Part shown: piece after piece, positions 27,809 to 61,659 of the stretch
Layout of the letters: each line of letters begins with the position of its first letter
Position numbering within the stretch: position 1 is the stretch's first letter
NCBI RefSeq assembly: GCF_008831285.2
Contig: NC_045139.1
Coordinates: forward strand, 17,898,354-17,962,353
Reading direction: 5' to 3'
Length of the DNA: 64,000 nt
From: Nymphaea colorata
Lineage: Eukaryota > Streptophyta > Magnoliopsida > Nymphaeales > Nymphaeaceae
Notes under the pieces: model-generated
Told to the model about the DNA's origin: nothing
Seen by the model: only the letters and a program-made list of their open reading frames with translations
The model's database searches: none
Program-made: the position numbers and the translations under genes

Positions 27809-29132
27809 TTAGCAAGGCTTTGTGCACATGCACCTCCTTCGCAATGGACTGCACCCTCCATTCCTGAAGCCTTCAGTGCGGCATATGGTTTGACAGTTTG
27901 AGCTGCTGAGACACACGTAATTGAATTTCTGGCTTGGCGATGAACAGGTCGCTGCTGATGCTTCAAACTTTTGTGCCAGACCTGTTTGTGAAAGGATGGG
28001 AACCAAATAAGTTCAGATATCATACATACAAAAGTGCCACTTGGTTTCACTACATTGTTCAAGAAAATAAAGAACATTTTGAGAATTGTCGAAATCCTAT
28101 AGGGGTAAAGTTGTTTGTGAGACTTGAAAGTTCGATGACTGCGAGGCTACAAGCTAGAACAGCGACCAACTAGCAGCAGAATTAAATCAACTAAATGAAA
28201 CAAAATGTTACCAAAATATATATTACCGAAGTTACCAACAGAAAATCTAATTGTAATAATAGCAATCATTTTTGTCCTTCAGCATTTTTTTCCCTAGATT
28301 GCCATCTAATTCTATATTCAACCGGAGTCACCCAAGATAATCTACTATCTGAGTATGGGCCTGACTCCAAACTGATAAAAAACGTTTACAAGAAAAAGTG
28401 GATCTAGATGTCGGTCCGTCAAAATTTTTTGTCCCAACATTTGGGGTGTGACAAGCAAGAGATGAGCAAGAAAGGTCTCGAGATATTCACTCTAGATCTT
28501 TCTCACCGCTACCAAAACACACTCTAGGCTTATAAAATTGAAGTGCGATGCTCCTCGCATGTGTCTTTACATGTGCCTTACTTAACAATTTATGTGGTGT
28601 TTTGAATTCGTTGATAGTAAGTTGTACTGAGATGCTAGTTTTGCTGCTTTTCCACATTGAAAGAAGTTACCACAGCAGGTCTCAATAGCAATGCACCACC
28701 AAATTAATTTACGAAGGAGTTTCTGATCTCTGCCAATGCCTCCTAATTATCTTGGATTCTGTTAAGGATACAGCTCTGCTCCTCCGTTCGCGAACTCTAG
28801 ATCAGGGCTAATTTACCGAAAGTACTGTCTGATTGTCACTGAACTCCGAAAGCACGCGGACATCTTACATAGACATGCTTACCTCTTGAAGGAAAACCAA
28901 AAACGCACTCATGTTTAGAATATTTACTTTCAGCCAACGGAGTAAGATATAAAAGGGCAGTTAACTGAAGAAAATTCAACCTTGTTCTATTTTTATTATA
29001 CCAATATAAGCTGTATGTATAGCTAGATATATGCATCTATGTTTCTCTCATAAAATTTTCAAAGTATAAAAATACCTTTTTGCTACATAAGCATAGAAAA
29101 TGAGAAAAGATCACGGCCAAAATAATTAAGTG

Positions 29133-29167
<35 letters not shown>

Positions 29168-29245
29168 TCATATAGCAAAGCCCAGCAGCAGGGCGTAGAG
29201 CAAGAGGGCAGCAAGGAGGAGGCTTTTGCTCTCAAAAGCTGCCAT
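27809..29245 (-). pseudogene. Plant defensin gene with a mutated intron donor site (defensin copy 1)
   Basis: Exon 2 (27981-27809, after an AAACAG acceptor) encodes the mature class I defensin domain: eight cysteines spaced 10-5-3-9-6-1-3, QKF before C2, E-G-F after C4, gamma-core GGC...RRRC, ending in KPC and stop. Exon 1 (from ATG 29245) encodes a clear hydrophobic secretion signal. A TATAAAT lies upstream and AATAAA lies downstream (27751-27746). In its paralogue at 32.7 kb the donor after the matching residue is GTATCT; here that position (29175-29174) reads CT, and the frame stops at TGA (29170-29168) without any GT donor in between. A weak GC donor at 29181-29180 would keep the frame, so expression is not excluded. 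Defensins are secreted antimicrobial peptides. I call it probably splice-defective. Confidence 0.7.
29132..29160. repeat. (GA)n microsatellite just after the defensin copy 1 signal exon
   Basis: About 14 GA units on the plus strand, a CT tract on the gene's strand. In copy 2 a CT tract also starts directly at the intron donor (32,611-32,634), so the tract is an ancestral intron feature. Confidence 0.9.
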
Positions 29246-29285
29246 TGAATTGATTAGTGTGAAGGGAAACCCATTTCTTAAACCA

Positions 29286-29292
29286 ATTTATA
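29286..29292 (-). promoter_or_regulatory. TATA box of defensin copy 1
   Basis: The minus strand reads CCTATAAATTG, 41 bp upstream of ATG 29245. The spacing leaves a very short leader, as in the other defensin genes here. Confidence 0.6.
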
Positions 29293-29299
29293 GGAAAAA

Positions 29300-32050: not shown

Positions 32051-32291
32051 TAATGGTCGATATCCTTTCTGAGGTGAGTTGGTACAACTCAAGAATGTTA
32101 TTAATTAGACAGAGGATACAGAGAACAGCAACTTTAGTTACCCATACAAAAGATGCAAAGAGAGCTTCAGAAGACAGCTCCCATTTTCTTATTCATCGAC
32201 AAAGACGAAAGGCGGAAGGGAAACTAAGCAGCAACAAGGCAGCTAGCAGGACTCCAAGAGAGCACATACGGGTAATGCATGATCATCACGG

Positions 32292-32710
32292 CTAGTTTTC
32301 AGCAGGGCAGGGCTTGAGGCACATGCATCGCCTCAGCACGCCGTGGCAATCGCCAGAAGGGAAACCTTCAGAGGAGCAGACGGAAGCGCAGTTCCTGTCG
32401 CTCAAGCACGCGCCACGGAATTTCTGGCTCGGCGATGCACACATCCTCGCCTCCACTTCTGCTACCCTCCCTGTCCACCATTATAAATCATTAAGCAGAG
32501 AAGCATCGGAGAACGAAGTATAGCGATAAGGACGCATTACATGATTTGGTTAAAGCATTTTGAACATTGCGCTAGAGTTAGTGAATATCGCAGTTTAACA
32601 GATTATCACAGAGAGAGAGAGAGAGAGAGAGAGATACCGAAGGCGAGTAGCAGCAAGCAGAGCAGGAGAAGGGTGGAGAGAAGGTTGGCACTTCTCTTAG
32701 AGGATGCCAT
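32292..32710 (-). CDS. Plant defensin (copy 2), complete, 2 exons
   Basis: Exon 1 32710-32638 encodes a signal peptide with a long leucine-rich core and ends in phase 1 before GTATCT. Exon 2 32470-32292 follows a GGACAG acceptor and stops at TAG. Total 83 aa. The mature part has eight cysteines spaced 10-5-3-9-6-1-3, with SPSQKF before C2, E-G-F after C4 and RRC-M-C before the last C: the cysteine-stabilised alpha-beta fold of class I plant defensins, without the C-terminal acidic propeptide of class II. It should be secreted to the apoplast; antimicrobial or other activity is not shown by sequence. A TATA box lies 37 bp upstream of the ATG. The short intron (167 bp) carries a (CT)n tract at its donor. 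It is the closest relative here of copy 1. Confidence 0.93.
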
Positions 32711-32746
32711 TGTTTCTGGATGGGAACGAAAGGACCAGCACCCGCT

Positions 32747-32753
32747 ACTTATA
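32747..32753 (-). promoter_or_regulatory. TATA box of defensin copy 2
   Basis: The minus strand reads CCTATAAGTAG, 37 bp upstream of the start codon. Confidence 0.6.
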
Positions 32754-32959
32754 GGAAATGGACAACCTCTTAGGGTTAGAAAAGAGATTTTGGTGGCAAA
32801 GTCGAAGGGCACAGCTCAAAAAAAAAAAAAAAAAAAAAGCCATTCCATTATCACTTTCCTTGTGTCTGAAGATCAGCCAATGCATTACTTTCAGTAATCT
32901 AAGCTCTTCTTGTTAAGAGGTTTATGTGAAAGAGGATTGGAAGATCCAGCTGCATCACT

Positions 32960-37307: not shown

Positions 37308-37678
37308 TGTTAGCAATTATGGAAAGGAGATCATCACAGATAGAGAAGATCAGTTACATAACAGCCAACGTCCTAATCTTTTGGTTAGCAATAAAGATGG
37401 CAACGATGTTGTTGCAACTATCACAGCGATAAGGGAAGATTCTGAAAACAAGGAAACCAAATCTTGGCAGGACAAGGAAGAAATCTTTTGTAACAAAGGC
37501 AGTAGAAAACTGCCTTATAGCGTAGATCCTTAACGCTATATATACCCTTCACGCCATCTGTACTAATTAATAAAAAAAGGAACTCTCTTGGCGTGTTTTC
37601 TCACCGTGGACGTAGGCTTTCTTAAGCTGAACCACGTTATATTTTGTGTTTGCTCTGCTCCTACTTTGTTTTTCTATA
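37308..37678 (+). repeat. 5' LTR of the copia element
   Basis: 371 bp, contains CTATATATACCC as a probable TATA box near 37,533. It differs from the 3' LTR only at 37666 (T versus C at 42310). Confidence 0.97.
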
Positions 37679-37690
37679 TGGTATCAGAGC
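37679..37690 (+). other. Primer-binding site (initiator tRNA-Met)
   Basis: TGGTATCAGAGC directly after the 5' LTR, the standard copia primer site complementary to the 3' end of tRNA-iMet. Confidence 0.95.
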
Positions 37691-37695
37691 CAACG

Positions 37696-39444
37696 ATGGC
37701 ATCTATTTCATCTTCCTCCACGCTGGTACAGATTTCTTATCCTTATCCTTATTCTATCAACGTCTCCAACTTTGTTTCTCTTAAGCTGCGACCAGAGAAC
37801 TTTCTTTTATGGAAGACACAGATTCTCGCTCTTATTGAAAGCCAAGATCTTCAAGGCTTTCTCATTGGAGACGTTGTTGCTCCTGCTGAATTCGTCATTG
37901 ATGCAGCTGATCCTTTAGGCCAGAAAAGGACTGTTAATCCCCAGTTCACAGCTTGGAAGAAATCAGATCGCCTCGTCAAGGGATGGATAATCAGTACCTT
38001 GACTGAAAGTGCTCTTGGTCGAGTTGTTGGTCAAGAGACATCAAGGGACATTTGGAGCTCTCTTATGGATGCCTACTCTCGCAAGTCGAGAGAGAGAGAG
38101 TTTCACCTAACTCATTTGCTTACGTCTCTCAAAAAGGGTGATGATTCTGTTGATGAATACATCAACAAATCCAAAGCAATCTGTGATGATCTTGCTGCCA
38201 TTGGGAAACCTGTTGATGATGGGGCGCGAGTTTATTGGCTGCTCCAAGGACTTGGTGATGGATATGAAGCCTTTGTCGCTGCCATGATTCGACCTCCTGC
38301 TCCATCCTATGAAGAAGTTGTTCCACTCCTTCAAAGTTTTGACACTCGCCTCAAAAGTCCCACGCCTCCTCTTATGGCTATGGTGAATCAACGTCAACCT
38401 AACCATAGTCATGGTCGCGGGCGCGGTCGCGGTCGCAACTACAATCATAATAGAGGACACAATTACAATCAGTTTCAAATCAACGATTCCCACTTTCCCA
38501 AATCTGATGATAAGAAAAACAAAAGTGCTGTTGTTTGTCAAATATGCGGAAAAAAATATCATTCCGCTATTAAGTGCTTTGAACGTTTCAATCATGGTTA
38601 TCAAGCAGAAGATGCTCAACAAGCCATGACTGCTCTATCTCTTGATGATGGAAACAACGCTGAATGGTTAGCTGACTCGGGAGCCTCCAGCCACATGACT
38701 GGCGATGCGGGTAAGATTTCTAACAAATCTATTTATCATGGTTCTGATCGTGTGATTATTGGAAATGGTAAATCTCTGCCCATAACTCATACTGGTCAAG
38801 GAAATTTGGTCGTTCATGGTTCTTATATTCCTCTCTCTAAAGTGTTATACGTTCCTCAATTGAAGAAAAATTTGTTGTCCGTAAGTCAAATAACTACAGA
38901 TTTACCTTATACCTTTGAGTTTTCCTCTTCATCTTGCTGCTTAAAGGACAGGAGAACGGGCAAGACAGTGGCGCAAGGCAGTAAGAAAGATGGAGTTTAC
39001 GTCATTGGAGATTCTAATGGCACCGTTAAAGATTCTAGTCATTTCCATGAAGCTTTCTTTTCATCCAGATTTAGGCGTGTTTCTGCTGATTTTTGGCACT
39101 CCAGGCTTGGTCATCCGCATTTTGGCGTCATCAAGTACCTTCATCAAAATAATTTAATTGACGTCAGTTCTTCAGTTCCTCAATCTACCATCTGTCACAG
39201 TTGTCAGTTAGGAAAAGCATGTAAACTTCCGTTTCTTGAAAGAGATAATAGTGCTATGGAAGTTTTTGGAAAAATTCATTCTGACTTATGGGGACCGGCA
39301 CCTATTGCGTCGCATCTTGGGTATCGCTATTATGTTATTTTCATTGACGAGTGGTCACGATTTACATGGTATGCAAGTCTGAATTTTTTGATTGTTTTGA
39401 TCACTTTCGTACATTTGTCGAAACTCAGTTCAATACAAGAATAA
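37696..39444 (+). CDS. Copia gag, protease and N-terminal integrase frame (ends at a frame break)
   Basis: ATG 37696 lies just after the primer site. In order: the gag region (LRPENFLLWKTQ, UBN2-type capsid); a CCHC zinc knuckle (C-x2-C-x4-H-x4-C, about 38,537-38,580); aspartic protease DSGASSHM (about 38,673); the GAG-pre-integrase HSRLGHPHF with CHSCQLGK (zinc-binding part of integrase); then the start of the integrase core (IHSDLWGP). Near 39,370 the similarity leaves this frame and continues in the third frame; the frame then runs on about 25 meaningless codons to a stop at 39,444. Confidence 0.93.
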   Translation: MASISSSSTLVQISYPYPYSINVSNFVSLKLRPENFLLWKTQILALIESQDLQGFLIGDVVAPAEFVIDAADPLGQKRTVNPQFTAWKKSDRLVKGWIISTLTESALGRVVGQETSRDIWSSLMDAYSRKSREREFHLTHLLTSLKKGDDSVDEYINKSKAICDDLAAIGKPVDDGARVYWLLQGLGDGYEAFVAAMIRPPAPSYEEVVPLLQSFDTRLKSPTPPLMAMVNQRQPNHSHGRGRGRGRNYNHNRGHNYNQFQINDSHFPKSDDKKNKSAVVCQICGKKYHSAIKCFERFNHGYQAEDAQQAMTALSLDDGNNAEWLADSGASSHMTGDAGKISNKSIYHGSDRVIIGNGKSLPITHTGQGNLVVHGSYIPLSKVLYVPQLKKNLLSVSQITTDLPYTFEFSSSSCCLKDRRTGKTVAQGSKKDGVYVIGDSNGTVKDSSHFHEAFFSSRFRRVSADFWHSRLGHPHFGVIKYLHQNNLIDVSSSVPQSTICHSCQLGKACKLPFLERDNSAMEVFGKIHSDLWGPAPIASHLGYRYYVIFIDEWSRFTWYASLNFLIVLITFVHLSKLSSIQE

Positions 39445-41939
39445 AAATTTTTCAATCAGACATGGGAGGAGAATACACTAGTTCAAAATTTACTCAACTT
39501 TTGGGCAGTCTTGGCATCAAACAACAATTTTCCTGTGCTCATACGAAACAGCAAAACGGCATGGCCGAAAGAAAACATCGAAATATTACTGAGTTAGGCT
39601 TGACTATGCTTTTTCATTCTGGAGTTCCTAAACGTTTTTGGTTCGAAGCATTCAGCAGTGCAGTTTTTCTCATAAATCGTCTGCCTTCATCCTCCTTGAA
39701 TATGGATTCGCCATACCTGAAATTTTTTGGTCGGCAACCTAAATATGATTTCCTGCGCATTTTTGGTTGTCGTTGCTTTCCATACTTAAGGGATTATGCA
39801 AAGGATAAACTTGAGCCCAGATCCCTTCCGTGTATCTTTCTTGGCTATAGTATACATCATAAAGGATACCGCTGCATGTATCCAGGGACAGGGAAGATTT
39901 TTGTTTCTCGTCATGTTTGCTTTGATGAACAGTATTTTCCATATAAGAATCCTGCAAAATTATATGATGGACATGGACTAACTCCGGATTTAATTTCTTT
40001 TGATGAATGGACTGAGTTGCATGATTCACACAGTCAAAAATCAGTGGCACATTCCCCATCCACCGTAGTTGATGATCAGCCTACTATTTATGAACAAAAT
40101 GCTGGCCACTCTCAAGACATTCTCATACAGTCTTGTGCTGGAACGCCTCTTGACACTGTCCAAGAACAGCCAGCAGTCAATCATATAAGTTCAGATAGGT
40201 CTACTCATATGGATCAACATGAGGACGTCAATAATGTGCCACTGGAGACAGACCACCTTGCATGCCCTGAAGCAAATGTTCCAACTCAGACTTCTATGGA
40301 TTCTATCGCTAGTCCTGTGAGAACCATGACCACCAGATCTATGGTGGGGACATATAAACCTAATCCAAGGTATGCTAATCTTCATATCTTATATGAGAAC
40401 ATTCCCAAAGAACCCACTAATGTCAATCAAGCTTTGCATCACGCTGGATGGAAGAAAGCTATGGACGATGAGATGAAGGCTCTCATTGAAAATAGAACTT
40501 GGGTTTTAGTTCCTTATGACCACACGATGAACTTGGTTGGATCCAAATGGGTGTTTAAAACCAAGTTAAAATCCGACGGGACCCTAGACAAACTGAAGGC
40601 CAGACTTGTTGCTCGGGGATTCTCTCAAAAAGAGGGTATAGATTTTCATGAGACTTTTTCTCCGGTTGTGCGACAAACCACGGTTCGAATGGTTATCACT
40701 GTTGCTCTTGTTAAAGGATGGGCTCTTAGACAGCTGGATATTAAAAATGCTTTCTTGCATGGGATGATTCGTGAAGACGTGTACATGCGGCAACCCCCTG
40801 GATACATAGATGAATCCAAACCTGATCATGTCTGCAAATTACAGCGAGCCTTATATGGTTTGAAGCAGGCGTCACGAGCATGGTATGCCAGGTTAAGTAC
40901 TTTTCTCCTTGATTATGGGTTTTCTATCAGTTTTGCCGATCCCTCCATGTTCACCTTGCATCAAGGACCTGTTACTCTCATACTTTTAATATATGTTGAT
41001 GATATGATTCTAACGGGAAGCTGCTCTTTAGCCTTGCAAAAATTCGTTGATACTTTCTGCAGTGAGTTTCCTGTTAAGGATCTTGGTCGCCTAACTTATT
41101 TTTTAGGCGTTGAAGTTGCTTGGACAAATCAGGGCCTCATACTTTGTCAAACAAAGTATGCAAAGGATATTTTGGAAAAGGCTAAGATGGAAGACTCTAA
41201 GCCTTGTAATACTCCTATGAGTACAAAAATACATAAACTACAAGCAGAAGATAAGACTTTTGATGATGTTACCTTCTACAGGCAAGTTGTTGGTTCACTT
41301 CAGTATCTTTGTCTTACTCGTCCGGACATCTCGTTTGCCGTCAATTACATCAGCCAATTTATGCATGCCCCGTTACACTCTCACTTTCAAATGGTTAAAC
41401 GTATTTTGCGTTATGTGAAAGGAACTCTACATTTTGGGCTTCAAATTTTGAAGCAAAGTACCTTGGATATATATGCCTTTTCAGATTCAGATTGGGCAGG
41501 TTGCTCCCATACCAGACGCTCAACCACCGGTTTCTGTATATACCTTGGTGCTAATTGCATTACTTGGAGTGCCAAGAAACAAAATACTGTTTCTCGATCC
41601 AGTGCTGAGGCTGAGTACCGAGCCATGGCGTCGACAGCAGCAGAGCTTACATGGGTTCAGTTCCTAATGAAAGACATAGGGATTCGAATAGATAAGGTTC
41701 CCTTGCTATATTGTGATAATAAAAGTTCCCTCTTTATGGCAGCAAACCCTGTAGCTCATGGAAGAAGCAAGCACATTCAAATTGATTTTCACTATGTTCG
41801 AGAACGTGTTGCTCAAAAACAGCTTGCAACAAAATTTATCTGTTCCAAAAAATCAGATTGCGGACGTCTTTACCAAAAGTCTAGCCAAGCAAGTCTTCAA
41901 CAACTTACGAAACAAACTCGGCCTTGTTCCACGGCCTAG
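39370..41939 (+). CDS. Copia integrase core, reverse transcriptase and RNase H frame (broken at both ends)
   Basis: Continues the integrase from about 39,375 (SDMGGEYTS, NGMAERKHR), then the reverse transcriptase (KARLVARGFSQKEG, QLDIKNAFLHG, catalytic YVDD at 40992-41003) and RNase H (SDSDWAGC, SRSSAEAEY). There is no real start codon: it is the downstream part of a split polyprotein. At an A6 run (41847-41852) the frame changes again, and the usual copia C-terminal wording (QIADVFTKSL) continues in the first frame to the 3' LTR. Both breaks look like small indels. They are described, not repaired. Confidence 0.93.
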
Positions 41940-41951
41940 TTTGAAGGGGAG

Positions 41952-42322
41952 TGTTAGCAATTATGGAAAGGAGATCATCACAGATAGAGAAGATCAGTTA
42001 CATAACAGCCAACGTCCTAATCTTTTGGTTAGCAATAAAGATGGCAACGATGTTGTTGCAACTATCACAGCGATAAGGGAAGATTCTGAAAACAAGGAAA
42101 CCAAATCTTGGCAGGACAAGGAAGAAATCTTTTGTAACAAAGGCAGTAGAAAACTGCCTTATAGCGTAGATCCTTAACGCTATATATACCCTTCACGCCA
42201 TCTGTACTAATTAATAAAAAAAGGAACTCTCTTGGCGTGTTTTCTCACCGTGGACGTAGGCTTTCTTAAGCTGAACCACGTTATATTTTGTGTTTGCTCT
42301 GCTCCTACTCTGTTTTTCTATA
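41952..42322 (+). repeat. 3' LTR of the copia element
   Basis: 371 bp, identical to the 5' LTR except for one base (42310). The purine tract GAAGGGGAG ends immediately before it. Confidence 0.97.
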
Positions 42323-45300
42323 GCTGCCTCACTTTTCAGTCCACTTGTTTGCTGCTTCAATATTCCTTAAATCAGTATTGTAAAATCTACTTGGCGTCTT
42401 CTCGTATGAATAAGAGAAAGTATATATGAATAATCCACCATCAAGTTATCATATTGGGCTTAATTACTAGAGGGCTGTGGCATATAAAATGGCCATTTCA
42501 GTGTTGAATTACTTTAGATTGTAAGTTTGCTTGAATATTCTTTGCCCTTAATGTTGTGTTGAATTAAACCAGTATTTTGGGCCTAGGAATCCCGTGCCTG
42601 TTTAGTTAGTTAACAATGGTTAACTAAGTGTTTACGACTTCTTTTCTAACTTCACTTTTTTTTCAAACTAATAGACATGCACTGTGGCCTTGTGAATAAA
42701 AGTTCCATCGTTATGAACTGAGTTTATTTTTTACAAGTAAATGTTTCAGTTTTGGTTTTATGTCCTTTCATTGACGTCTGAACACACACACACACACACC
42801 AGATTAAACTATCAACAAGAAAAACCAGTTGATCAACTCAGAAAATTCAAACCAGATTATTAAAAAAAATTATCGATGCCAATTCAGAGGGCAGGGAATC
42901 AATCGGTTTTGACTTGAGCTGTTGGCAATTTTTCTCCAAGGTAAACTTATGATGGATGTCGACTGATTAATTAAACTTTTGAAGAATAAACCTCGGATTT
43001 ACGCTATTGGGTTATTTGATGTAACTAGATGCTTGTGGTACCATTTCAAATTGTATATTTATATTTACTTAACATCGATAAGCAGTGATAATTTTATAAA
43101 CAGTTTCCCGTTTACATTTTACTCCCCGAGAAATGTTCAATCGTGCCACCTATTGGCTGCAGATATAGATTGATTTGTTTGGAGAATTGTACATTTGTTC
43201 TTTGATGGTGACTTCAATATTGCAAGGATGAATATTAATTGGTGCTCAAGTGGATCAATCAACTTATCAACTACTTATATCCAAAGCAAAAAGCATCACG
43301 ATTACCTTATAGGAGTTGGACAGGTTGATTGCTACATATTGATTAGTTTGGTTTACCTCTGAATAGACACTCACATTCACACATCCTTACAAATCCGGTC
43401 GCCACCTCTACTGGGAGGCAGCCATTCGGCTGACGGGAATTACAGGAGTACAAGTTGATAAAGAGTATTATTTATACTAGAGTGCCTGATGCACCCTAAG
43501 TAAAATATCAAATTCCTTGGGGTTTTTGGAAAGCCTATTGGAATATGTATGGTCTTGAGCCACAACTGTGTAACCTTAGTAAGTAGAATGGTCTTCAACC
43601 AGCAGAATGATCTACTAAATTAGAAATTTTTTGAGGGCCATTTGGCGTAAAGAACACTGTGTGAATGTTCCATGAACCTGTAGCAAATATCTGAACCAAT
43701 TCTATCGATGTGTGAGATAATGGAGTTCTTTACCATGATAACACAATTACACTCTTCATGCTTCCACCCAAGCTGAAGATTCTTGGTTACAAGTTCCATG
43801 TCTACTGATAAATAATTAGGTCCATGTAGTTTTTGTCGGGGTTGGTATACAAAAACGCTCACAGCGATACTTGCAGTTGAATAACTAATAACTAAGCTCG
43901 TAAGGATTAATCAGGTGTGCTGGTTGTCAGTTTGTTTATGTTTGTAGGTATGCATGGCCACCCAAGAAATTGTCTAGACCTATTTAGAATAGTACATCAT
44001 GGTTTACCGGTATGACACTTTCTGAAATTCAAAGAAGCAAAGATCTCTATTAATATATCAAGCACATGACATCAAAGTTCAAGATCACAAGTAGCCATAT
44101 TTCTTGTAACATTTGGTTATGATATATGAGACGGTGATTGGAATATAATTTTGAGCAGTTGGAGAAACCATTAGCCAGTACTTCAACCTTGTTTTGAATT
44201 CAATGCTTTGCATTTCACATGAATACATGAGACGCCGTAATGACGATACTGAAACCTTTTCCTTTATTCCATGATAATTGTGTCGTATAGTTTCTGTTTG
44301 TAACAAGTTATATACTTTATGAGACCACGACTTTCTCTTTCTCTCTCTCTCTCTCTTTCTCTATGTGACTGATGGACTATAAGCGGCTCATTTATTGACA
44401 TTCAAGTTCTTGAATTTGTCTATGTCCACAAGTTTAGGCCTTCCATGTATTGGGGTGAACTTGGTCAAGGCTTGAAAGAACATCGGGCAAATTTAGGCCA
44501 CAAATCTCCCCCTCCTTCTAGTTAGAAGTTGGCGGCCTGGCTTTTATGGCCCAAACCTTAGACAGCGACACCACATGAGTCCTATCTTGTTAAATGCCAT
44601 AGAAATTGGAAGCTAGTCAGTTTGGCAGGGACTTGGTTAGAAGGTTTGAAGGACAACTGTGGCTGCTTTTGAGTCCAACAAATTTAATTTGGACGAAAAC
44701 TCATATCTATCTTCTTATGATTGTGACCACAACATGTGGATCCAGAAAGCCGTATATATCGATTAGGTCTGCAAATAGGTCCGGTTGAATCAAATATAGC
44801 TTAGAACTACTTTCAAAGCTTCCCCTCTTGTCAGATCCAATATATATTTTAGCACTTTTTAGATCCAATGGTTTAACGAACCTTTAGATTAAAAACTACA
44901 GTTAATTGGATACCTTTAGATTCACATTGATCAGTATTTGTAACTAATTATAAAATTTTACAGTAGGTAACCAAAGGGGTTGCGGAACAGTTTGGAGACG
45001 AGGCTAGTAAACAGCCAGCATCTATTTTATGGCAACAACTTCTTGTGATACAAAATGGGGTATCGATGTGCAAGTTGAAGCACAGTGAAGGTGGCACCCT
45101 GAAACACCGGAAGCAGACCTTATGCACTAAGAAGACAAAGAGTTGAGTGTGTTATCTGGCAAGTGGTGGGTCTCTCCCGCTCATCAGAAATAAAAATTAA
45201 TTTGCAGTTAAATCCAAAGCCACTAGACTTCTAATCAAAGATGAATTTAAAGCAAGGAATACATTGACAAGGATCTACCCACCCATGGGAGGAACAACCA

Positions 45301-45612
45301 TAGTCCTGCCTGTGGCCTTGCTACGTGGCCATATGCGGCCATAATTCGAGTGATTTCTAATATTGCCGGTGCCATGATTTAATTAATTTTCTCCTTATTT
45401 TACTGAAAATGTCAAAAAAGAGCCTGATCAAGTTAATCGTGTGGCCAAAATTTGTAGAAAAGGAATGAAAATGTGATCTGCACATTCTTCCAAATTATTT
45501 CCACCCATATCAGTCTTGGAACGTATGCTGCGGATTCAAAATTTCAAAACTTCATCATCCAATGAAACTCAGTTACTTGTGTGAATAGTCCTCCTTAAGG
45601 CCATGCCCGCTC

Positions 45613-45619
45613 TATAAAT
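45613..45619 (+). promoter_or_regulatory. TATA box of defensin copy 3
   Basis: GCTCTATAAATGTG, 44 bp before ATG 45657, inside a block conserved in all four plus-strand defensin genes. Confidence 0.65.
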
Positions 45620-45656
45620 GTGACCAATTCGGCATGCCTAATTGGTATCCAGAGCA

Positions 45657-46088
45657 ATGGCATCTCCTAAGTACAACATTCTTCTTTCAGCCCTCCTGCT
45701 CTCCTTTTGGCTACTAACCCTTGGTAAAACCCTCTTTCTCCCTCCGCAAACATGCAGGATTCCCTCTCTTCATCAAATTAGTTTAGAACATCGATATGCT
45801 TCCTTGCAATGTTCACTAGAAACATTATGGGGTTGTTTGGTAAGAGGAACACTTTATTAGTGTAAAAGTTAAAGTAGATTCATTAAGTACTTTCACAAGT
45901 GTTCAATGAATCTATTCCCGCTTTTGTGGTGCATACATGAATACTAAAAAAGTATTCCTCTTACCAAATAGCTTTTATATGCTTACAAAGATTATATCTA
46001 GTTAGGAGTTTAATATAAGCCAAGTGTTTTGTTCACAAGTTGGGGATATAGAATTGTGTGTTAGTGCTTTTAGCGATGCTGATTGGAA

Positions 46089-46119
<31 letters not shown>

Positions 46120-46301
46120 CTGGATCAGGGGGAATCGCAGGAGCTGAAGATGCAGTCTGCTATGCAGCAAGCGGGCAGTTCCATGGGCTGTGTTTTAGTA
46201 GCAGAAACTGTGCAAATGTCTGCCAAGGTGAAGGCTTCACTGGCGGAGATTGCCACCTCTTAGCATGCCGGTGCTCGCGTCCATGCCCTACTAAAAACTA
46301 G
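45657..46301 (+). CDS. Plant defensin (copy 3), complete, 2 exons
   Basis: Exon 1 45657-45723 (signal peptide beginning MASPKYNILLSALLL, phase 1, GTAAAA donor). Exon 2 46129-46301, after a long (CT)n tract and GGATCAG acceptor. Total 79 aa. The mature domain has eight cysteines spaced 10-5-3-9-4-1-3, with G-x-C5 (GGDC) and the CRC pair of the CS-alpha-beta motif. There is no C-terminal propeptide beyond PTKN. The C5-C6 spacing of 4 separates it from copies 1 and 2 (spacing 6). It should be a secreted defence peptide; targets cannot be read from sequence. It is part of duplication unit 1, and its nearest relative is copy 4. A MITE sits in the intron. AATAAA lies at 46457-46462. Confidence 0.93.
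45831..45972. mobile_element. MITE in the intron of defensin copy 3
   Basis: GGTTGTTTGGTAAGAGGAA pairs with TTCCTCTTACCAAATAGC at the other end. The interior also folds back (GATTCATT...AATGAATC). The same element sits at the same place in copy 4 (51334-51473) and is absent from copies 5 and 6, so it inserted before the copy 3/4 duplication. Confidence 0.8.
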
Positions 46302-46456
46302 CGGAGGCTCCCCAATGGCCCTACCTATTACACCATCAAATTAATTAAATAAATCATGTAATAGGGTGCTCAAGTGTTTTCTGCCGCTTCATTTCTTGTG
46401 CTGTTACTACTCCATCCTTGTTCTCCTTTGCATCTGTGTGTCTGCCATTAAGCATA

Positions 46457-46462
46457 AATAAA
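46457..46462 (+). terminator. Polyadenylation signal of defensin copy 3
   Basis: AATAAA inside TAAATAAAGCAGCC, a 3'-UTR word present after every plus-strand defensin gene here (with GGCAGTCC in copies 5, 6 and the relic). Confidence 0.6.
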
Positions 46463-46894
46463 GCAGCCGTGTTTATGTACGTACGTTCATCCCCTCTTAA
46501 AATGGAGTTGTATATATATATATATATATATATATCAGGAAATAACCTACTACCTTAACGGCCGAATGGTTATTTTTTCAAATTTTTTGTGTCGTCCAAA
46601 ACCATCACAAAAGGTAATTTATGGCGACTTGCTTAGCGATAGAATAATCATTTATAATCGTTTTTAGCAATACAAAATAAAAAAAAAAAACATCTAACCA
46701 CAAAGTTAACTAGCTGATTTGAATTTTTCTATACATAGTGGGTGGTAACTCTAGTTTTTCAAAGTCACACAGCCATATAATCAGGATTATTTTTTGAAAC
46801 AAACGATTGATTGAGAGAAAAATAAAGATAGAATGCCTATCACCTCTTCTCCATTGGCTTTCTCTTACATGATCAAACAACCTTGGTTAGATTT

Positions 46895-46950
<56 letters not shown>

Positions 46951-48919
46951 CTAAATTTGTGTGACCATGGTTTTAGCCATTCCCTGTATTACAAGTCCAT
47001 TATTGTTTATAGCAGAATACACCAATATTCATTTTATTCTACTTGCTTAAAGCATCGAAACTGACTGTATGCAGCGTCCGGTTACGGAAATAAAGTTATA
47101 AAAATTGTGAATAGAGCGGAATGAGAAAGAGAATAGTCCTGATCAGTAACAATGTGAATTTTTATAAAAGCTAAAAAAGGTAACAAAAAAGTAAAAAGTA
47201 AAAGTTAAAAAAACATGGTTTTTAATTTTCAAAATACCCCACTTTCACATTTTTTTTCGGGTGCATAACTGTTGCAGATTTGACCTTGACCTAATAATGG
47301 CCCGAGTATTTAATGGTGCCATTTTTTTCGAGCTGGACATGGCCAACCCAGCATGATTCCCTCGCCGAAATATTTCGGGTGTCTTTCAAAAAAAGTATAT
47401 ATTAAATAAGCCACGGGTGGCCACACAGTTTAACTTCCGATTTGGGTAGGAACAAATTGAAGTCGAATTTAAAAAATACATTGCACAATTAAAATTTTTT
47501 AATTTTTTTAATGTATTTTTTTTTTCAAATAGTTAGGATGAGGCGATGGCCGAACTGGCCCACCCCCTCCCTCCGCCCCTGCCCCTGTGAATAAGAAGGA
47601 TGAGAAAAAAAAGGTCAAAACTAATATCCACCATAAAGATATTATATCGGGCTTAATTACTAGAGGGCGTGTCATATAAAATGGCCATTTCAGTGTTGAA
47701 TTACTTTAGATTGTAAGTTTGCATGAACATTCTTTGCCCTTAATATTTTGTTGAACTAAACCAGTATCCAGTATTTTTCGGCCTAGGAATCCCGAGCCTG
47801 TTTAGTTAGTTAACAATGGTTAATTAAGTGTTTACGACTTCTTTTCTAACGTCACTTTATTCAAATTAATAGCCATGCACTGTGGCCCTGTGAATAAAAG
47901 TTTCATCGTTATGAACTAAGTTTATTTGTTACAAGTAAATGTTTCAGTTTTGGTTTTATGTCCATTCATTGACGTCTGAACACACACACACACAGACACA
48001 CCAGATGAAAACAAAACCAATTGATCAACTCAGAAAATTCAAACCAGATTATTAAAAAAAATTATCGATGCCAATTTAGGGGGCGAGGGAATCAATCGGT
48101 TTCGTCTTGAACTGTTGGCAATTCTACTCCAAGGTAAACTTTTGATGGATCTCGACTGATTAGTTAAAATTTTGAAGAATAAACCTCGGATTTACGTTAT
48201 TGGGTTATTTGATGTAACTAGATGCTTGTGGTACCATTTCAAATTGCATATTTATATTTACTTAAGATCTATAAGCAGTGATCATTTTATAAACAGTTCC
48301 CGTTTACATTTTACTACCGGAGAAATGTTCAATCGTGCCACCTATTGGCTGCAGATATAGATTGATTTGTTGGGAGCATTGCACATTTATTCTTCGATGG
48401 TGATATTCATTAATTGGTTTTCAAGTGGATCAATCAACTTATCCCCTTATTGTATCCAAAGCAAAAAACATCACCAATACCTAATAGGAATTGGACAAGT
48501 TGATTGCTACATATTGATTAATTTGGTTTACCTCTGAATAGACCCTCACACTCACACATCTTACAAATCCGGCCGTCACCTCTACTGGGAGGCAGCCATT
48601 CGGCTGACGGGAATTGCTGGAGTATAAGTTAATAAAGAGTATTATTTATACAAGAGAAGTCTTGGGTTTTTTGGAAAGCCTATTGGAATAAGTATGGTCT
48701 TGAGCCACAACTGTATAACCTTAGTAAGAGAATGATCTTCTAAATTAGAAATTTTTGAGGGCCATTTGGCAAGAAGAGCACTGTGTGAGTGTTTCATGAA
48801 TCTGTAGCAAATATCTGAACCAATTCTATCGATGTGTGAGATAATGAAGTTTTTTACCATGATAACACAATTACACTCCTCATGCTTCCACCCAAGTTGA
48901 AGATTCTTGGTTGCAAGGC

Positions 48920-49300
48920 ATACTCAGGAGCCGACGAGCCGTGGCATAGACGTTTCTCATACTGATTATTTTGTTTAGTTGCGTGCATGAATTTTCAATA
49001 TGTTTTGTTTAATTATGATGTTATTGTTGATTATTAATGATGTAGTCATCTGCAGAACGTTGAAATGTAATGATGAGCATGTAAATTCCAACTATTTATA
49101 AAGGTACATGTGAGCAGATGTCGGGGTGCTATACCCTAATGTTTCAAACAGTGGCGGAGTTGAAAAAATTTTATGAAGGGAAATTCTTTTACAGATTTTT
49201 ATTTCTAAATGTGCACTATGTATAAAACCGAACAAGTATTTGAAAATATTAATATAAAAATAATGAAGGGCACATCAGCCCATATGTAGCTCCACCTCTG
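48920..49300. mobile_element. Insertion specific to unit 2, with a hAT-like MITE end
   Basis: Unit 1 runs continuously from AAGATTCTTGGTTACAAG to GTTCCATGT..., while unit 2 is interrupted here. GTTGCAAG before and GTTACAAG after could be an 8-bp target duplication. The right part (49149-49300) begins CAGTGGCGGAG and ends GCTCCACCTCTG, the termini of a hAT-type MITE also found at 57,335-57,512. How the left part (48,920-49,148) belongs is unclear. Confidence 0.6.
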
Positions 49301-51113
49301 GTTACAAGTTGCATGTTTGCTGATGATAAATGATTATGTCCATGTAGTTCTTGTGGTGGTTGGCATACAAAAACGCTCATAGCGATACTTGCAGTTGAAT
49401 AACTAACAACTATGCTCGTAAGGATTAAGTGAAGTGTGCTGGTTGTCAATTTGTTTATGTTTGTCCGTATGCATGGCCACCCAAGAAATTGTCTAGACTA
49501 ATTTAGAAGTATGACATTTTATGATATTCAAAGAAGCAAAGATCTCTATTAATATATCACGCACATGAAATCAAAGTTCAAGATCACAAGTAGCCATATT
49601 TCTTGTGACATTTGGTTATGATCTATGAGACGGTGATTGCAATATAATTTTCAGCAGTTTGGAGAAACCACTAGCAAGTACTTCAACCTTGTTTTGAATT
49701 CAATGCTTTGCATTTCACATGAATACATGAGACGCGGTAATGACGATACCGAAACCTTTTCCTATTTTCCATGATAATTGAGACATATAGTTTCTGTTTG
49801 TAACAAGATATACACTTTATATGAGACCACGACTTGATCTCTCTCTCTATCTCTCTCTCTCTATCATTGTGACTGACGGACTCTAGGCGGCTCTGTTATA
49901 GACAGTCGAGTTCAAGAATTTGTCTATGTCCACAAGATTAGGCCTTCCATGTATTGGGGTGAACTTGGTCAAGACTTGAAAGAACATCGGGCAAATTTAG
50001 GCCACAAGTCTCCCCCTTTCTTTCTAGTTAGAAGTTGGCGGCCTGGATTGTATGGCCCAGACCTTAGACAGCGACACCACATGAGTCCTATCTTGTTAAT
50101 TCCATAGAAATTGGAAGCTAGTCAGTTTGGCAGGGACTTGGTTAGAAGGTTTGAAGGACAACTGTGGCTGCTTTTGAGTCCAACAAATTTTATTTGGACG
50201 AAAACTCATATCTGTCTTCTTATGATTGTGACCACAACATGTGGATCCAGAAAGCCGCATATATCGATTAGGTCTGCTAATAGGTCTGGTTGAATCAAAT
50301 ATAGCTTAGAGCTACTTTCAAAGCTTCCTCTCTTGTCAGATCCAACATATATTATAGCTCCTTTTAGATCCAATGGCTTGACGAACCTTTAGATTCAAAA
50401 CTACAGTTAATTGGATATCTTTAGATTCACATTGATCGGTATTTGTAACTAATAATAAAATTTTGCAGTTGGTCATCAAAGGGGTTGCGGAACAGTTTGG
50501 AAGGAGCCAGCATCTATTTTATAGCAACAACTTCTTGAGCTACAAAATGGGGTCACTGATGTGCAAATTGAAGCGCAGTGGAGGCGACATCCTAAAACAT
50601 CGAAAGTAGATTCTATACTCTAAAAGGACAAAGAGTTGAGTGTTTGTTTCGATTCTCTGCATAGTGGTGGGTCTCTCCCGCTCATCAGAAATAAAAATTA
50701 AGTTGCAGTTGAATCCAATGCTACTAAAATTATAATCAAAGACCAATTTAAAGCAAGGTATACGTTGATGGGGATCTACCCACCCAAGGGTGGAGCAACC
50801 ATAGTCCTGCTTGTGGCCTTGTTACATGGCCATACACGGCCATAATTAGAGTAATTCCGATTATTGCCGGTGCTGTGATATAATTAATTTTCTCCATATT
50901 TTACTGAAAATGTCAAAAAATAGCCTGACCAAGTTAACCATGCGGCTTAAATTTGTAAAAAAGCGATGAAAATGTGATCTGCACATTCTTCCAAATGATT
51001 TCCACCGATATTAGTCCTGGAACTTAAGCTGCGGATTCAAAATTTCAAAACTTGATCATCCAATGAAACTCGGTTACTTGTGTGAATAGTCCTCCTTAAG
51101 GCCATGCTCGCTC

Positions 51114-51120
51114 TATAAGT
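51114..51120 (+). promoter_or_regulatory. TATA box of defensin copy 4
   Basis: GCTCTATAAGTAGG, 44 bp before the ATG, same block as copy 3 with one changed base in the TATA itself. Confidence 0.6.
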
Positions 51121-51157
51121 AGGGCCAATTCGGTGTGCCTAATTGGTATCCAGAACA

Positions 51158-51798
51158 ATGGCTTCTCCTAAGTACAGCATTCTTCTTCCGGCCCTCCTGC
51201 TCTCCTTTTGGCTACTGGCCTTTGGTAAAACCCTCTTTCTCCCTTTGCGAAAGCACCGGATTCTCTCTCTCTCTGTCAAGATGGTTTAGACCATCAACAT
51301 GATTCTTTGAAATGTTCACTACAAACATTACAAGGTTGTTTGGTAAGAGGAACACTTTATTAGTGTAAAAATTGGAGAAGATTCATTAAATACTTTCACA
51401 AGTGTTCAATGAATCTATTCGACTTTTGTGGTGCATACATGAACACTAACCAAGTATTCCTCTTACCAGACAGCCTCTATATGCTTACAAATATTATATC
51501 AAGTTAGGAGTTTCATATATAGGCCCAAATGTTTTGTTCACAAGTTGGTATTATAGAATTCTTTGTTAGTGCTTTTAGCGATTTTGATTGTAATCTCTGT
51601 CTCTGTATCTGTGTCTTTGGATCAGGGGGAGTAGCACGAGCTGAAGATGCAGTCTGCTATTCAGCAAGCGGGCGGTTCCATGGGTTGTGTTTTAGTAGCA
51701 GCAACTGCGCAAATGTCTGTCAAGGTGAAGGCTTCACTGGCGGAGATTGCCACCTCTTAGCATGCCGGTGCTCGCGTCCATGCCCTGCTAAAAACTAG
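51158..51798 (+). CDS. Plant defensin (copy 4), complete, 2 exons
   Basis: Exon 1 51158-51224 (signal peptide beginning MASPKYSILLPALLL) and exon 2 51626-51798 give 79 aa. Cysteine spacing is 10-5-3-9-4-1-3 as in copy 3. Visible differences in the mature part are few (for example YSASGRF for YAASGQF, SSN for SRN, PAKN for PTKN), so the pair may act alike or be only slightly diverged. Intron and acceptor are as in copy 3, but the (CT)n tract before the acceptor has decayed to CTCTGTCTCTGTATCTGTG. The intron holds the shared MITE (51334-51473). AATAAA lies at 51954-51959. Both splice sites, signal peptide and stop look intact. Confidence 0.93.
51334..51473. mobile_element. MITE in the intron of defensin copy 4
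   Basis: Same element and position as at 45831-45972, with the same inverted ends (GGTTGTTTGGTAAGAGG / CCTCTTACCAGACAGCC). Confidence 0.78.
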
Positions 51799-52495
51799 CG
51801 GAGGCTGCCCAATGGCCCTACCTATCACACCGTCGAATTAATTAAATAAATCATGTAGTAGGGTCCTCACGTGTTTTCTGCCGCTTGATTTCATCTGCTG
51901 CTACTACTCCATCCTTCTTCTCCTTTGCCTCTTTGTGTATCTGCCAAAGAATAAATAAAGCAGCCGTGTTTATGTACGGATGTTCATCCCCTCACAAATT
52001 GGAATCGATATATATATATGTAACGTGTTTATGTATGTACGTTCATCCCCTCTTCATCTAATGGAGTCGAATATATATAGAATATCAAGAAATAAGTCAA
52101 TAACCCACTACCTTAATGACCGAATGGTTATTTTTCAAAATTTTTGTATCCTCAAAAACCATCACAAAAGGTAAATTTATGACGACCTGCTTGGCGACAG
52201 AATAATCTTTTATAACAGTTTGTAGCAGTACAGAATAAAAAAAAAGTAATAATCTAACTACAAAGTTAACCAGCTTATTTTAATTTTTCTATAAATAATG
52301 AATGGTAAATCTAGTTTTTCCATGTCACTCAACCATCTGACTAGGATTATCCTTTTGAAACAGATGATTGATTGAGAGAAAAATAAAGATAAAAAAGAAT
52401 GTCCATCACCTCTTTTTTCTGGGCTTTCTCTTATTATGTAGACCAAACAACAATAGCTGACTGGCTTTGAAAAATTAGAGTTACCATTTATTATT

Positions 52496-52502
<7 letters not shown>

Positions 52503-52570
<68 letters not shown>
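52503..52570. repeat. Compound (CT)n(AT)n microsatellite
   Basis: About 17 CT units followed directly by about 17 AT units. The matching place in unit 1 (46,896-46,945) has a shorter version. Confidence 0.93.
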
Positions 52571-52572
<2 letters not shown>

Positions 52573-52929
52573 CCTAAATTTGTGTCACCATGGTTTTAGC
52601 CAATTCCTGTTTCGCAAGTCCTTTATTGTTTATAGCAGAAATACAGCAATATTCATTTCATTCTACTTGCTTAAAGCATCAAAACTGATTATATGCACCG
52701 TATGATTAGCAAAATAAGGTAATAAAAATTGTGCATAGGGCGTAGTGAGAAAGAGAATAGTCCTGATCAGTAAAAAGGTGAGGTTTTATAAAAACGAAAA
52801 AACTTAACAAAAAAGTAAAAGTAAAAAAAAGCATTTTTTAAAATTTTCAAAATACCCCACTTTCTCATTTTTTTTGGGGTGCATAACTGTTGAACATGGA
52901 CCCAATAATGGCCAACCCAGCCCGAAGCC

Positions 52930-55392: not shown

Positions 55393-56131
55393 ATGGCATC
55401 TCCTGTGCGTAGCATTCTTCTCCCTGTCCTCTTGCTCTTCTGGCTACTAGCCTTTGGTAAACCCCTCCGCCTCCCTCCATTTCATCTCTTGCTCGAGGCC
55501 TTTATATCAAAATGGTTTAGAATATGTACTTTTTTGCATGTTCACTAACTTTCCATAAGAAGATTGTACGCTTACAAATATTCAATGGTGTCGAGGAACT
55601 GACAACTTGCGGACACAGAATTCTGGTCTCTAATTATGCTTTGCTTAAAAGGATCGTTGGGCAACAATAACAAATGTTTTGGTTAAAAGTTAAGGGGCCA
55701 GTCAGCGTTACTGCAGTAACATACTGTGTCCAGATTTCATATGTGCAGTAGCATGAAGTCTCGTGAAAGAGAGCCCCCAAGCGAACTGGATGATAAACTT
55801 AATCACCTTGTGCACCAGCAAATTTCTTGTGCGTTTATGTGCGTGTTTTGGTTTGGATATTCTCATTGACTTCTTCGTTGGAGCTTTCTTGATGGCTTTA
55901 GTTGATCGCTTTCTCTCCTTCTGTCTCCGTGAACCAGGGGTAATAGCACAAGCTCAAGATTCTGTCTGCAAAGTTGCAAGCAAGGATTACAATGGACTGT
56001 GTTTGACTCCTAACGACGACACCAACTGCGGGAATGTCTGCCAAAATGAGAAGCCTACTACTTATACAGGCGGACATTGCTCCCTCGGGTCATGCTACTG
56101 CACATATGATTGCACGCCTGTTAAAAACTAG
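55393..56131 (+). CDS. Defensin-like peptide (copy 5), divergent spacing, complete, 2 exons
   Basis: Exon 1 55393-55456 (signal peptide beginning MASPVRSILLPVLLL, phase 1) and exon 2 55938-56131 give 85 aa. Eight cysteines with spacing 10-8-3-12-4-1-3: the loop between C2 and C3 is three residues longer and the loop between C4 and C5 is also three longer than in copies 3 and 4. The mature part has several acidic residues and few basic ones (DDTNC, YCTYDC), unlike the basic gamma-core of copies 1 and 2, so a classic membrane-active antifungal role is less sure. Other jobs of defensin-like peptides (signalling, inhibitor) are possible; this is inference. The intron lacks the MITE of copies 3 and 4. 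AATAAA lies at 56273-56278. Confidence 0.9.
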
Positions 56132-58400: not shown

Positions 58401-58419
58401 TACGCCTATCAAAAGGCAA

Positions 58420-58787
58420 AACCTGTTAAACTCAGTCAAATTCAAAAGGAATCATTGAAAAAATTATTGATTGCGATTCAGTGGGCGAGAGATTCAAACG
58501 GTTTTGGCTCGACTTATAGGCCAATTTTACTCCTGTCTGGACTTATTTTTTGAGTTTACAATATTTGCATGTGATTCATACAAAACCAGATTTTAATTAC
58601 CAGGCACTGACATACATAATTTCAAGGTACATAATTATTTGGTGGATCTCGATTAGTAAAATTTTGTAGACGAAAACCCTATTCTGATTTTTAGGATAAT
58701 TGATGTAAATAGATGCAGGCGGGGCGATTTCATGAAATTGGCCCAAGTGATGATACTATTGAAGAGGATAAGGCATTTCATGTTGTC

Positions 58788-58830
<43 letters not shown>

Positions 58831-59240
58831 AAAACAAGTGAGTGTTGAACTTTAGGTTAGCTCTACTCATTACACCGTGAGTTGTTGTTTTGCAATAGTA
58901 GCACTCTGTTACTATTCTATGAATCTGCCCTAAAAAATAAGACTGATTTAGAACAATGTAACAAGTGTTTCATAAATGTGCTCTATTTTTTTTATAAATT
59001 TTTGAAATAATAACAATATGTTACTATTGTCAAACAGCATTTAAGGGTTACACTTGCAATTCGCTAGCTTAATGTGCTGCAGAAGTTCTATATATCTCTT
59101 GTTTTCTCCTTTACTGTTGTGTATCTGCCAGAATAAACAAAAAAAAGGCAGTCCTTTGTTGATGTACATGGAAGTGCTTGTAGGTTAGTGGAGTAACATA
59201 TCAAGTAAGTTTGTGTGACTATGGTTCTACTAATAACAAC
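58420..59240 (+). pseudogene. Decayed defensin unit: flank and 3' UTR without coding exons
   Basis: 58,430-58,740 follows the distal flank of units 1 and 2 (CTCAGTCAAATTCAAA, AATCATTGAAAAAATTATTG, GGTGGATCTCGATTAGT, ATTGATGTAAATAGATGCA). 59,045-59,220 follows the defensin 3' UTR (CTAGCTTAATGTGCTGC, GTATCTGCCAGAATAAAC, GGCAGTCCTTTGTTGATGTA, TTTGTGTGACTATGGTT). Everything between, including promoter, signal exon and mature exon, is missing or replaced by (TA)n(TG)n and unrelated sequence. This is best explained as a former defensin gene removed by deletion. Confidence 0.65.
58791..58830. repeat. Compound (AT)n(TG)n microsatellite
   Basis: About 11 AT/TA units followed by about 9 TG units, inside the decayed defensin unit. 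Confidence 0.92.
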
Positions 59241-59249
59241 AATAATAAT

Positions 59250-60940
59250 TAAGCGGCACGTTTTACTCAAGGCATTAATCACATAATCTTAAGACCTTCA
59301 AATACATTGTAAAATGGATTGTAAAATGATTGGGAGACAACATATATAAATGAGTAAATGGTTGAGGGAAATAATAAGCAAGCAGATGTAAATAATGTTG
59401 GCAAAAACGGACACAAACCGCATGATTGTACTTTATAATTGAAGACAATGGCTCACAACAACATGTAAATAAGCACTTCCATCAAGTGCACAAGCAAAGC
59501 AAAATACTTATTCTACCTGAGCTCTAAAACTAAAACCCTTATCATCCAAGGGATCCCACAAATATATATTTTGTTGCACAATAATAAAACAAACAATGAA
59601 AAAATAATCTCAAGTAAAGAAGGATAAGAGAGAGACACTAATTTTAACGTGGAAAAGCCTCTAAAAAGCGGAAAAATGTCACCTAATTGAGAGTGATGAC
59701 CTTTCCACAACAAAAGAACTTCTTACTCTTGCCCTAATCTTCAATAATCAAAGACAAAAAAGTTTTTTTTTTTTTAAAAAAAAAAAAAAAACCCAAACAG
59801 TAATAGAATCTTTTTCTCCTTGGCAATCTCTCTTTCTCTTTTGTTAAAATCTGCCTAATGGCTTCAAACTTCAAAGGGCGAACATTAACTCTCCGTTTCT
59901 TTCTTTCTCTCTCCTCAATAGCAATTCAGACTTAAAAGCCCAAACCGCATAAAAAATATAGGATGCCAGCCCTCTTTTTAAAAAAATTAGTTTTAGTGCA
60001 CCATATTTATCAAAATCGCCCCTTTTTTATTTTTGTCGAATAGGAAGTGCTTTGCTTTTTCTTTTTTGCTTGGATGTAGATCCTCTACAAGAACGATCCA
60101 ATAGATGAATTTTACGGACAGGCACACACTCCGACATGCGGCGACGGAGGCGTTGGCCCACCGCTATAATTTTCTTTGCCAGTTGCTCGTTTGGCGGATT
60201 TGATTGTGCCAAACAAGTGCATTCATTCATGTTTGCTATATATCAACTGGCCAGCAAATGGGTCCAATTGGATCACGACTAAACATTAATGCATTTGGAT
60301 CATAAGGCAATATATATTGAAACACAGTTCAGACCAGATCGGGGTTTGATATATTCAGATTAATAGCAGATCCCAAGCGCCACATAAAAATGTAACAAAA
60401 CGATTGGTAGGACATCTGATCAGAGATGCTTTACCGTTAGAGGCCACGTTCTTTCTTGCTACAAAGTTTGATCCACTGGTTTTTCATAACTTTTATATTT
60501 GAAATGAATTGATTTTACTTATATGATTTGCAACCAAATGTAGAATTTCAATTCCAATCCAAAAGTGGTGCGAAGTTTATGATCTTAGTCGAGATTGAGT
60601 GGCATGCACTGGTGCACGCTGGGTAGCAAAGAGAAGGGGGGGTTTTCGTATTTTGAAATTTTTTTATAAAGAATTATATTTTTTAGACTTTTAACATTTT
60701 AATAATTCTTTTTTATGCTTATAATAAGCTAATTACCTTTCTATTTTAATCAAAGGGCATTTTAGCCATTATAATTTTTTAATGCACAAGGCTTGGTAAT
60801 CGCAGTCCATTCACAACGCCATTGTTTGATTCGCTGCCCCAAACTTCACGCCGGGCCCCACTCACCTGTGGGAGTCTCATGGGCGTGGTCCCCGCCATGT
60901 GCCCACATAATTTGGACTTTGGAGTAATCCCAAAGGACGC
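59250..60940. other. Spacer upstream of defensin copy 6
   Basis: 59,500-59,720 contains TTTAACGTGGAAAAGCCTC, a phrase frequent in plant retrotransposon-derived repeats. A poly-T/poly-A run lies at 59,763-59,790. No gene supported. Confidence 0.4.
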
Positions 60941-60951
60941 TGCTCTCCTTC

Positions 60952-60958
60952 TATAAAT
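60952..60958 (+). promoter_or_regulatory. TATA box of defensin copy 6
   Basis: TTCTATAAATAGCG, 43 bp before ATG 60995. Confidence 0.65.
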
Positions 60959-60994
60959 AGCGTCAGTTGGGTGTCACTAATTGCTATCAGAGCA

Positions 60995-61659
60995 ATGGCA
61001 TCTCCTCAGGGTCGCATTCTTCTCTTCCTCTCCTTTTGCCTGCTAGCCGTTGGTAAATCTCTCTCTCTCTCTCTCTTCCCGCTTTACTTAAAAGCATCTA
61101 CTGCTGTGCGTGTTCACTAATTTTCATGAGGACATGTAATATGCATAATTATCAATATTGCATTCATTGGCGCTACGGAATGTCATACGCCAACAAATAT
61201 ATATTATGTTCACATCTTGAGGAAAAGAATTCTCATATCAAATTCTGTGCCGCTGAAATTTTAAAGGCAGTAGATAAGATAGGAAACTACTACATCACCT
61301 CTGCAATTGCAGTACATGTTGAACAAGGCATATGATATAAGAACAACCTCAATGAGAAGCAAATGATGATCCTTTTGTGTATGCGTGTTTTTGGTCTAAT
61401 TCTATCTGGACTCCGTTGGTCGTTTGGTAATTGATGTGAAATATCATCGCTCTCTGTATCTGTATCTGTCTCTGTCTCTGAACCAGGGGGAATGGCGCAA
61501 GCTGGTGTAGATGGGATATGCTATTCTCAAAGCAAGCGGTTCAGTGGTGTATGCTTTAGCAGCAGCAACTGTGCACATGTCTGCCAAAGTGAAAGTAACT
61601 ACTACTACACGGGCGGTGATTGCCACCTCTTCCAATGCAGATGCTCACATCCCTGTTAA
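60995..61659 (+). CDS. Defensin-like peptide (copy 6), complete, 2 exons
   Basis: Exon 1 60995-61052 (short signal peptide beginning MASPQGRILLFLSFCLL, phase 1) and exon 2 61487-61659 give 76 aa. Eight cysteines spaced 10-5-3-12-4-1-3: it shares the short C2-C3 loop with copies 3 and 4 and the long, tyrosine-rich C4-C5 loop (NYYYTGGD) with copy 5. The stop follows directly after C8, so the usual xxKN tail is lost. The KN-TAG of the other copies survives just behind as AACTAG, in a way that suggests a point change created the earlier TAA. The intron has no MITE. AATAAA lies at 61815-61820. Predicted secreted peptide; specific activity unknown. Confidence 0.92.

Follow-up and report, generated by a model that had tools for sequence, protein, structure and literature searches.

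Our results point, with moderate confidence, to a defensin cluster made up of two kinds of genes: a basic type, with six residues between the fifth and sixth cysteines (spacing 6), and a spacing-4 subfamily that arose once, now sits at three loci and continues to turn over at this one. The peptides of both would be secreted antimicrobials, the latter working through another surface. The window, i.e., the whole stretch of DNA analysed, has 64,000 nucleotides of Nymphaea colorata (C2:17898354-17962353), and coordinates are counted from its first letter unless a contig or locus is named. The forward primer of Ny-2.2, a chromosome-2 marker of N. colorata (PMC9601493, Table 1), has a single exact match in the genome, located on C2; the reverse primer matches the opposite strand, giving a product of 202 bp that encloses a CT repeat. 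Six eight-cysteine frames were found where a first-pass annotation had placed six defensin genes, and all of them passed the curated cut-off of PF00304 (Gamma-thionin), with E-values from 1e-18 to 1.9e-8, as did all three of the other genes sent to the same test. The cysteine pattern was matched six times in the window and never in 100 randomised sequences (first-order Markov, window length). A genome-wide PF00304 search (407.8 Mb), in which 31 candidates were scored, revealed at least 20 exon-2 frames, all 20 above the cut-off; this count is a lower bound. Judged by their sequence, the genes form a cluster of plant defensins (gamma-thionins), a well-known kind of family.

On the minus strand, exon 2 of D1 lies at 27809-27981 (first to last Cys 27812-27946; loop SPLRRR) and exon 2 of D2 at 32292-32470 (first to last Cys 32307-32441; loop HGVLRR), both with spacing 6. 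D2 exon 1, which is signal-peptide-like, was located at 32638-32710, upstream of a phase-1 intron of 167 bp. The four plus-strand genes have spacing 4: D3 (exon 1, 45657-45723; exon 2, 46129-46301, Cys 46158-46286; loop HLLA), D4 (51158-51224; 51626-51798, Cys 51655-51783; HLLA), the divergent D5, with a net charge of -1 (55393-55456; 55938-56131, Cys 55967-56113; SLGS), and D6 (60995-61052; 61487-61659, Cys 61519-61656; HLFQ). Within the window, the two spacings are thus distributed over the strands as first proposed. A common two-exon, phase-1 design had been attributed to all six genes, and this held for five of them: D2 to D6 have a hydrophobic, signal-like exon 1 and the mature domain in exon 2, separated by a phase-1 intron with GT-AG borders (167-481 bp), the secretion signal being judged by the splice sites and the hydrophobic stretch. 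It failed for D1, which lacks an exon 1 of this kind joined through a phase-1 intron. The signal-peptide-like exon-1 homologue of D1 (29178-29245, minus strand; nhmmer E 2.5e-6) contains no GT within its reading frame, and a TGA is found two codons past the codon where its relatives are spliced. Exon 2 of D1 is intact, with a dN/dS relative to D2 of ∼0.39 (0.42/1.09). Because exon 1 has no GT donor while exon 2 is intact and constrained, D1 looks either recently broken or dependent on another first exon.

The cluster had been thought to consist of six genes and to end at 61659, which proved too short. Two further genes, both on the minus strand, lie beyond the end of the window: D7 (C2:17964299-17965035; spacing 6, loop HGFRRR) and D8 (C2:17969720-17970361; spacing 4). 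The cluster thus comprises eight genes over ∼44 kb of C2. Strand was considered as the divider of the spacing types and rejected, since D8 has spacing 4 yet is on the minus strand.

All 20 genes of the genome-wide set follow the classical order of eight cysteines, CX(4,25)CX(2,12)CX(3,4)CX(3,17)CX(4,32)CXCX(1,6)C, as quoted in PMC7407236, and a gamma-core (GXCX3-9C) was present in each of them. Among these genes, at least 20 in number, seven have a C5-C6 spacing of 4, nine a spacing of 6 and four a spacing of 8. The loop carried no Lys or Arg in any spacing-4 gene (HLLA, HLFQ, SLGS, SLFQ or SLLV), and two or three in all nine spacing-6 genes (three, two and three in D1, D2 and D7, respectively); among the spacing-8 genes, one had three such residues, one had one and two had none. 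The net charge of the spacing-4 genes was -1 to +2. When scored from two residues before C5 through C8, the net cationic charge that is named with the gamma-core criterion in PMC7432377 was absent from D5 (-1) and from four genes with a charge of 0, namely D6, C5a, the C6 gene and the gene at C2 8.54 Mb. The classical motif allows no fewer than four residues between C5 and C6 (CX(4,32)C; PMC7407236), and spacing 4 still lies inside it, which would fit a neutral difference, both groups being ordinary antifungal defensins that were randomly expanded and lost. We regard this as conceivable but doubtful: the short loop is fully associated with the absence of Lys/Arg (7/7, versus 0/9 of the spacing-6 genes), and it was kept short and uncharged over old divergences within the spacing-4 clade (dS ∼0.56-1.35 where defined).

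In a tree of mature domains, with 18 genome rows and eight PDB defensins as the sole outside rows, the spacing-4 genes formed one clade (97/99). This tree omits D8, which is identical to D4, and the C3 copy, which is identical to a C9 gene. The clade was kept at 90/82, below the usual 95/80 mark, once all C5-C6 residues were cut out, and was recovered at 92/93 on a precursor tree (19 rows, without D1) that carried a long-branch warning including the C13 gene. The domains are short (45-51 columns), and the main tree leaves 12 of its 23 inner branches open, the placements of D1 and D7 among them. The clade spans three loci, namely this cluster, C2 8.54 Mb and C13 7.31 Mb, and the genes of the last two group with D5 in the mature-domain trees (91/89 and 88/80). 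A clade restricted to the four plus-strand window genes was neither shown nor rejected (p-AU 0.281). When the genome was searched with the D5 protein (E up to 1), the seven matches were exactly the seven spacing-4 genes, and no further divergent spacing-4 gene was present among the best candidates; only these were scored, and the family counts are lower bounds. The spacing-4 subfamily most likely arose once among the defensins of this genome, as the trees suggest. The proposal of two subfamilies, one on each strand, stands in part. There are two sequence groups, and spacing 4 marks a clade; D8 and the members at C2 8.54 Mb and C13 take it beyond the plus strand of the window. On the spacing-6 side, D1 and D2 were not shown as sisters, D2 pairing with a C11 gene (92/98) and D1 being placed in an open fork.

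The predicted model of D4 has a beta-alpha-beta-beta arrangement, with the CS-alpha-beta fold (mean pLDDT 82.2); that of D5 is weaker (mean pLDDT 73.7), and the fold is predicted at lower confidence. The solved folds nearest to the D4 model were plant defensins, TPP3 being the first (Foldseek E 8.6e-5, TM 0.88/0.91). Pea Psd1 (1jkz) was a fold match to the same model (E 4.4e-3; 26% identity), and its sequence match to D4 was weak (E 0.011). Psd1 has spacing 4 and is antifungal, and as a fold neighbour of D4 it speaks for a spacing difference without consequence; its short C5-C6 loop is likely an independent shortening. Pine PsDef1/PsDef2 (5nce, 7lns) were the top PDB sequence matches of D4 and D2 and also have a Pro after C8; their C5-C6 loop is of eight residues, unlike that of D4 and D2. 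With the spacing-4 alignment as a profile, the best PDB match was gamma-1-P thionin (E 6.3e-12), and in published docking models (PMC7432377) it is the loop linking strands 2 and 3 that docks into an insect alpha-amylase. The spacing-4 peptides might then inhibit herbivore digestive enzymes of the alpha-amylase type by inserting the short loop. We hold this to be quite improbable: the E-values of the five best PDB matches differ by no more than a factor of two, and first place among them carries little weight.

The cluster is of the same family as MtDef4 and the Class I RGFRRR defensins (PDB 2lr3; 7c2p, 6dmz), and the best PDB matches of D7 (HGFRRR) were 7c2p, 6dmz, 7c31 and 2lr3. When RGFRRR of MtDef4 was changed to AAAARR or RGFRAA, fungal entry was lost and phosphatidic-acid binding was impaired (PMC3853197). 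The gamma-core, which holds the C5-C6 loop, is named in a review as the site of major antifungal determinants (PMC7432377). The spacing-4 genes have their short loops in place of the arginine loop of MtDef4, and a cationic RGFRRR-like loop is present in none of the seven. Because MtDef4 depends on the cationic loop both to bind phosphatidic acid and to enter fungi, the spacing-4 clade, by analogy, probably works through another surface. In the mechanism that we propose, the peptides of the cluster would be secreted, would fold as four-disulfide CS-alpha-beta domains, and would act outside the cell against microbes. The spacing-4 loop, two residues shorter and free of Lys/Arg, would not support phosphatidic-acid binding or fungal entry in the MtDef4 manner, and these peptides would use another surface, either by binding membrane or wall through other loops or by acting on another target. 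With the basic loop lost, it is plausible that the target surface has changed in this group. The loss of loop charge need not mean a loss of antifungal action, because two of the four spacing-8 genes also have no basic loop residue and another has a single one.

The spacing-4 subfamily appears to be turning over at this locus by tandem duplication, inverted duplication and gene conversion. D3 and D4 are contained in two plus-strand tandem units (unit 1, 42433-47302; unit 2, 47626-52913) that are 84-87% identical to each other, and D8 lies within an inverted copy of ∼1.9 kb with 87-89% identity. Exon 2 of D8 (C2:17969720-17969892, minus strand) is identical to that of D4 at 173 of 173 bases; elsewhere the identity of the two is 88% upstream and ∼92% in each of exon 1, intron and downstream region. 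The tract common to both covers 51579-51825 on the plus strand, i.e., 247 bases (255 alignment columns) with no difference. This run comprises 20 agreeing informative sites, a length that was reached in none of 20000 permutations, and in the same permutation test the longest runs of other pairs gave p 0.30 (D3-D4) and p 0.036 (D3-D8). The tract is best read as the outcome of gene conversion between inverted copies ∼20 kb apart; alternatively, it is possibly an assembly artefact. The first-pass view that the spacing-4 group is still being duplicated was borne out by the 5-kb tandem copy, the inverted copy and the conversion tract taken together. In Arabidopsis defensin-like genes, few recombination events have been described, with tracts also in the mature-peptide part (PMC5731061), whereas here one clear tract joins the two inverted copies. 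An imperfect inverted repeat, which may be MITE-like, is present in the D4 intron (51333-51476) and, at the corresponding place, in the introns of D3 and D8, the other two young spacing-4 copies.

The dN/dS ratios, calculated by the Nei-Gojobori method with our own script, were 0.36-0.43 for D3/D4, ∼0.13 for D4/D6, with dS near saturation, and ∼0.8 (0.443/0.558) for D5 versus D4. This last value and the net charge of D5 (-1) count against the reading that we favour. The ratio is below 1 wherever dS is defined, which says only that the peptides appear to be constrained. The spacing-4 branch could have left defence and now provide secreted signals, e.g., in pollen-pistil communication or development: no basic loop residue is found in 7/7 genes, their net charge is low, D5 is divergent and duplication is recent, and the clustered defensin-like AtLURE1 genes encode pollen-tube attractants (PMC3525529). 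We consider such a shift unlikely, given how strongly the genes match PF00304, the family of classical defensins, and given the D3/D4 and D4/D6 comparisons, which show constraint and not clear diversifying selection. It would be a long shot that the spacing-4 group is an offshoot of the water-lily lineage in which a two-residue deletion plus substitutions removed the arginines, the short uncharged loop then being kept and spread for its binding to a new partner, possibly a plant receptor in reproduction; were this true, an early-diverging flowering plant would have evolved signalling defensins independently. The spacing-4 clade offers a natural analogue of the loop mutants published for MtDef4: related genes with and without the arginine loop are open to direct comparison in one genome.

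One relic had also been announced, with no place given. A block at 59093-59252 (plus strand), between D5 and D6, is 72% identical to the D6 downstream region, and part of it is 71% identical to that of D5. It resembles the 3′ flank of a lost spacing-4 gene of which no coding exon is left. Three DNA profiles, one for exon 1 and one for the exon 2 of each type, gave no coding relic in the window plus 30 kb; the only relic found is this non-coding block. Over the same span, the other DNA-profile matches, at ≤3.3 bits, gave no additional exon-2 remnant, and the best exon-1 match outside the eight genes (19550-19608, E 0.84) was at chance level.

Among the titles listed by literature searches, none dealt with the defensins of water lilies, although this does not prove that nothing has been published on them, and the paper on the water-lily genome (PMC7015852) does not use the word defensin in its main text. 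The defensins of early-branching flowering plants seem to be little described.

A young copia LTR retrotransposon is located between D2 and D3 (37308-42322), with 371-bp ends that differ at 1 base, flanking GCTGC repeats, a gag-type frame (37567-39441) and an integrase/reverse-transcriptase frame (39348-41936). A gap of 110 bp separates it from the start of tandem unit 1. The element is unlikely to have caused the tandem copy, as a single difference in 371 bases separates its two ends, versus 13-16% between the units. Downstream of D1, pieces of 26176-27032 are 75-89% identical to a region downstream of D8 (C2, 69618-70658 from the window start). At two other defensin loci, C9:25.15 Mb and C3:16.50 Mb (L014 and L017), 3.6 kb are in common at 94% identity and the mature peptide is the same; the C9 locus is ∼27 kb from the end of its contig. 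To the left of the cluster there are two adenylate kinase-like exon frames, at 19671-20327 (above the Pfam cut-off) and 24159-24581 (below it), and an exon-like frame that matches flavin amine oxidase (13987-14589). Just past the first adenylate kinase-like frame, a direct repeat covers 20375-20972 with a step of ∼213 bp and 93-95% identity. A minus-strand frame with a Myb/SANT-like DNA-binding domain (L011:1454-2227) lies to the right of the cluster, ∼21 kb beyond the end of the window.
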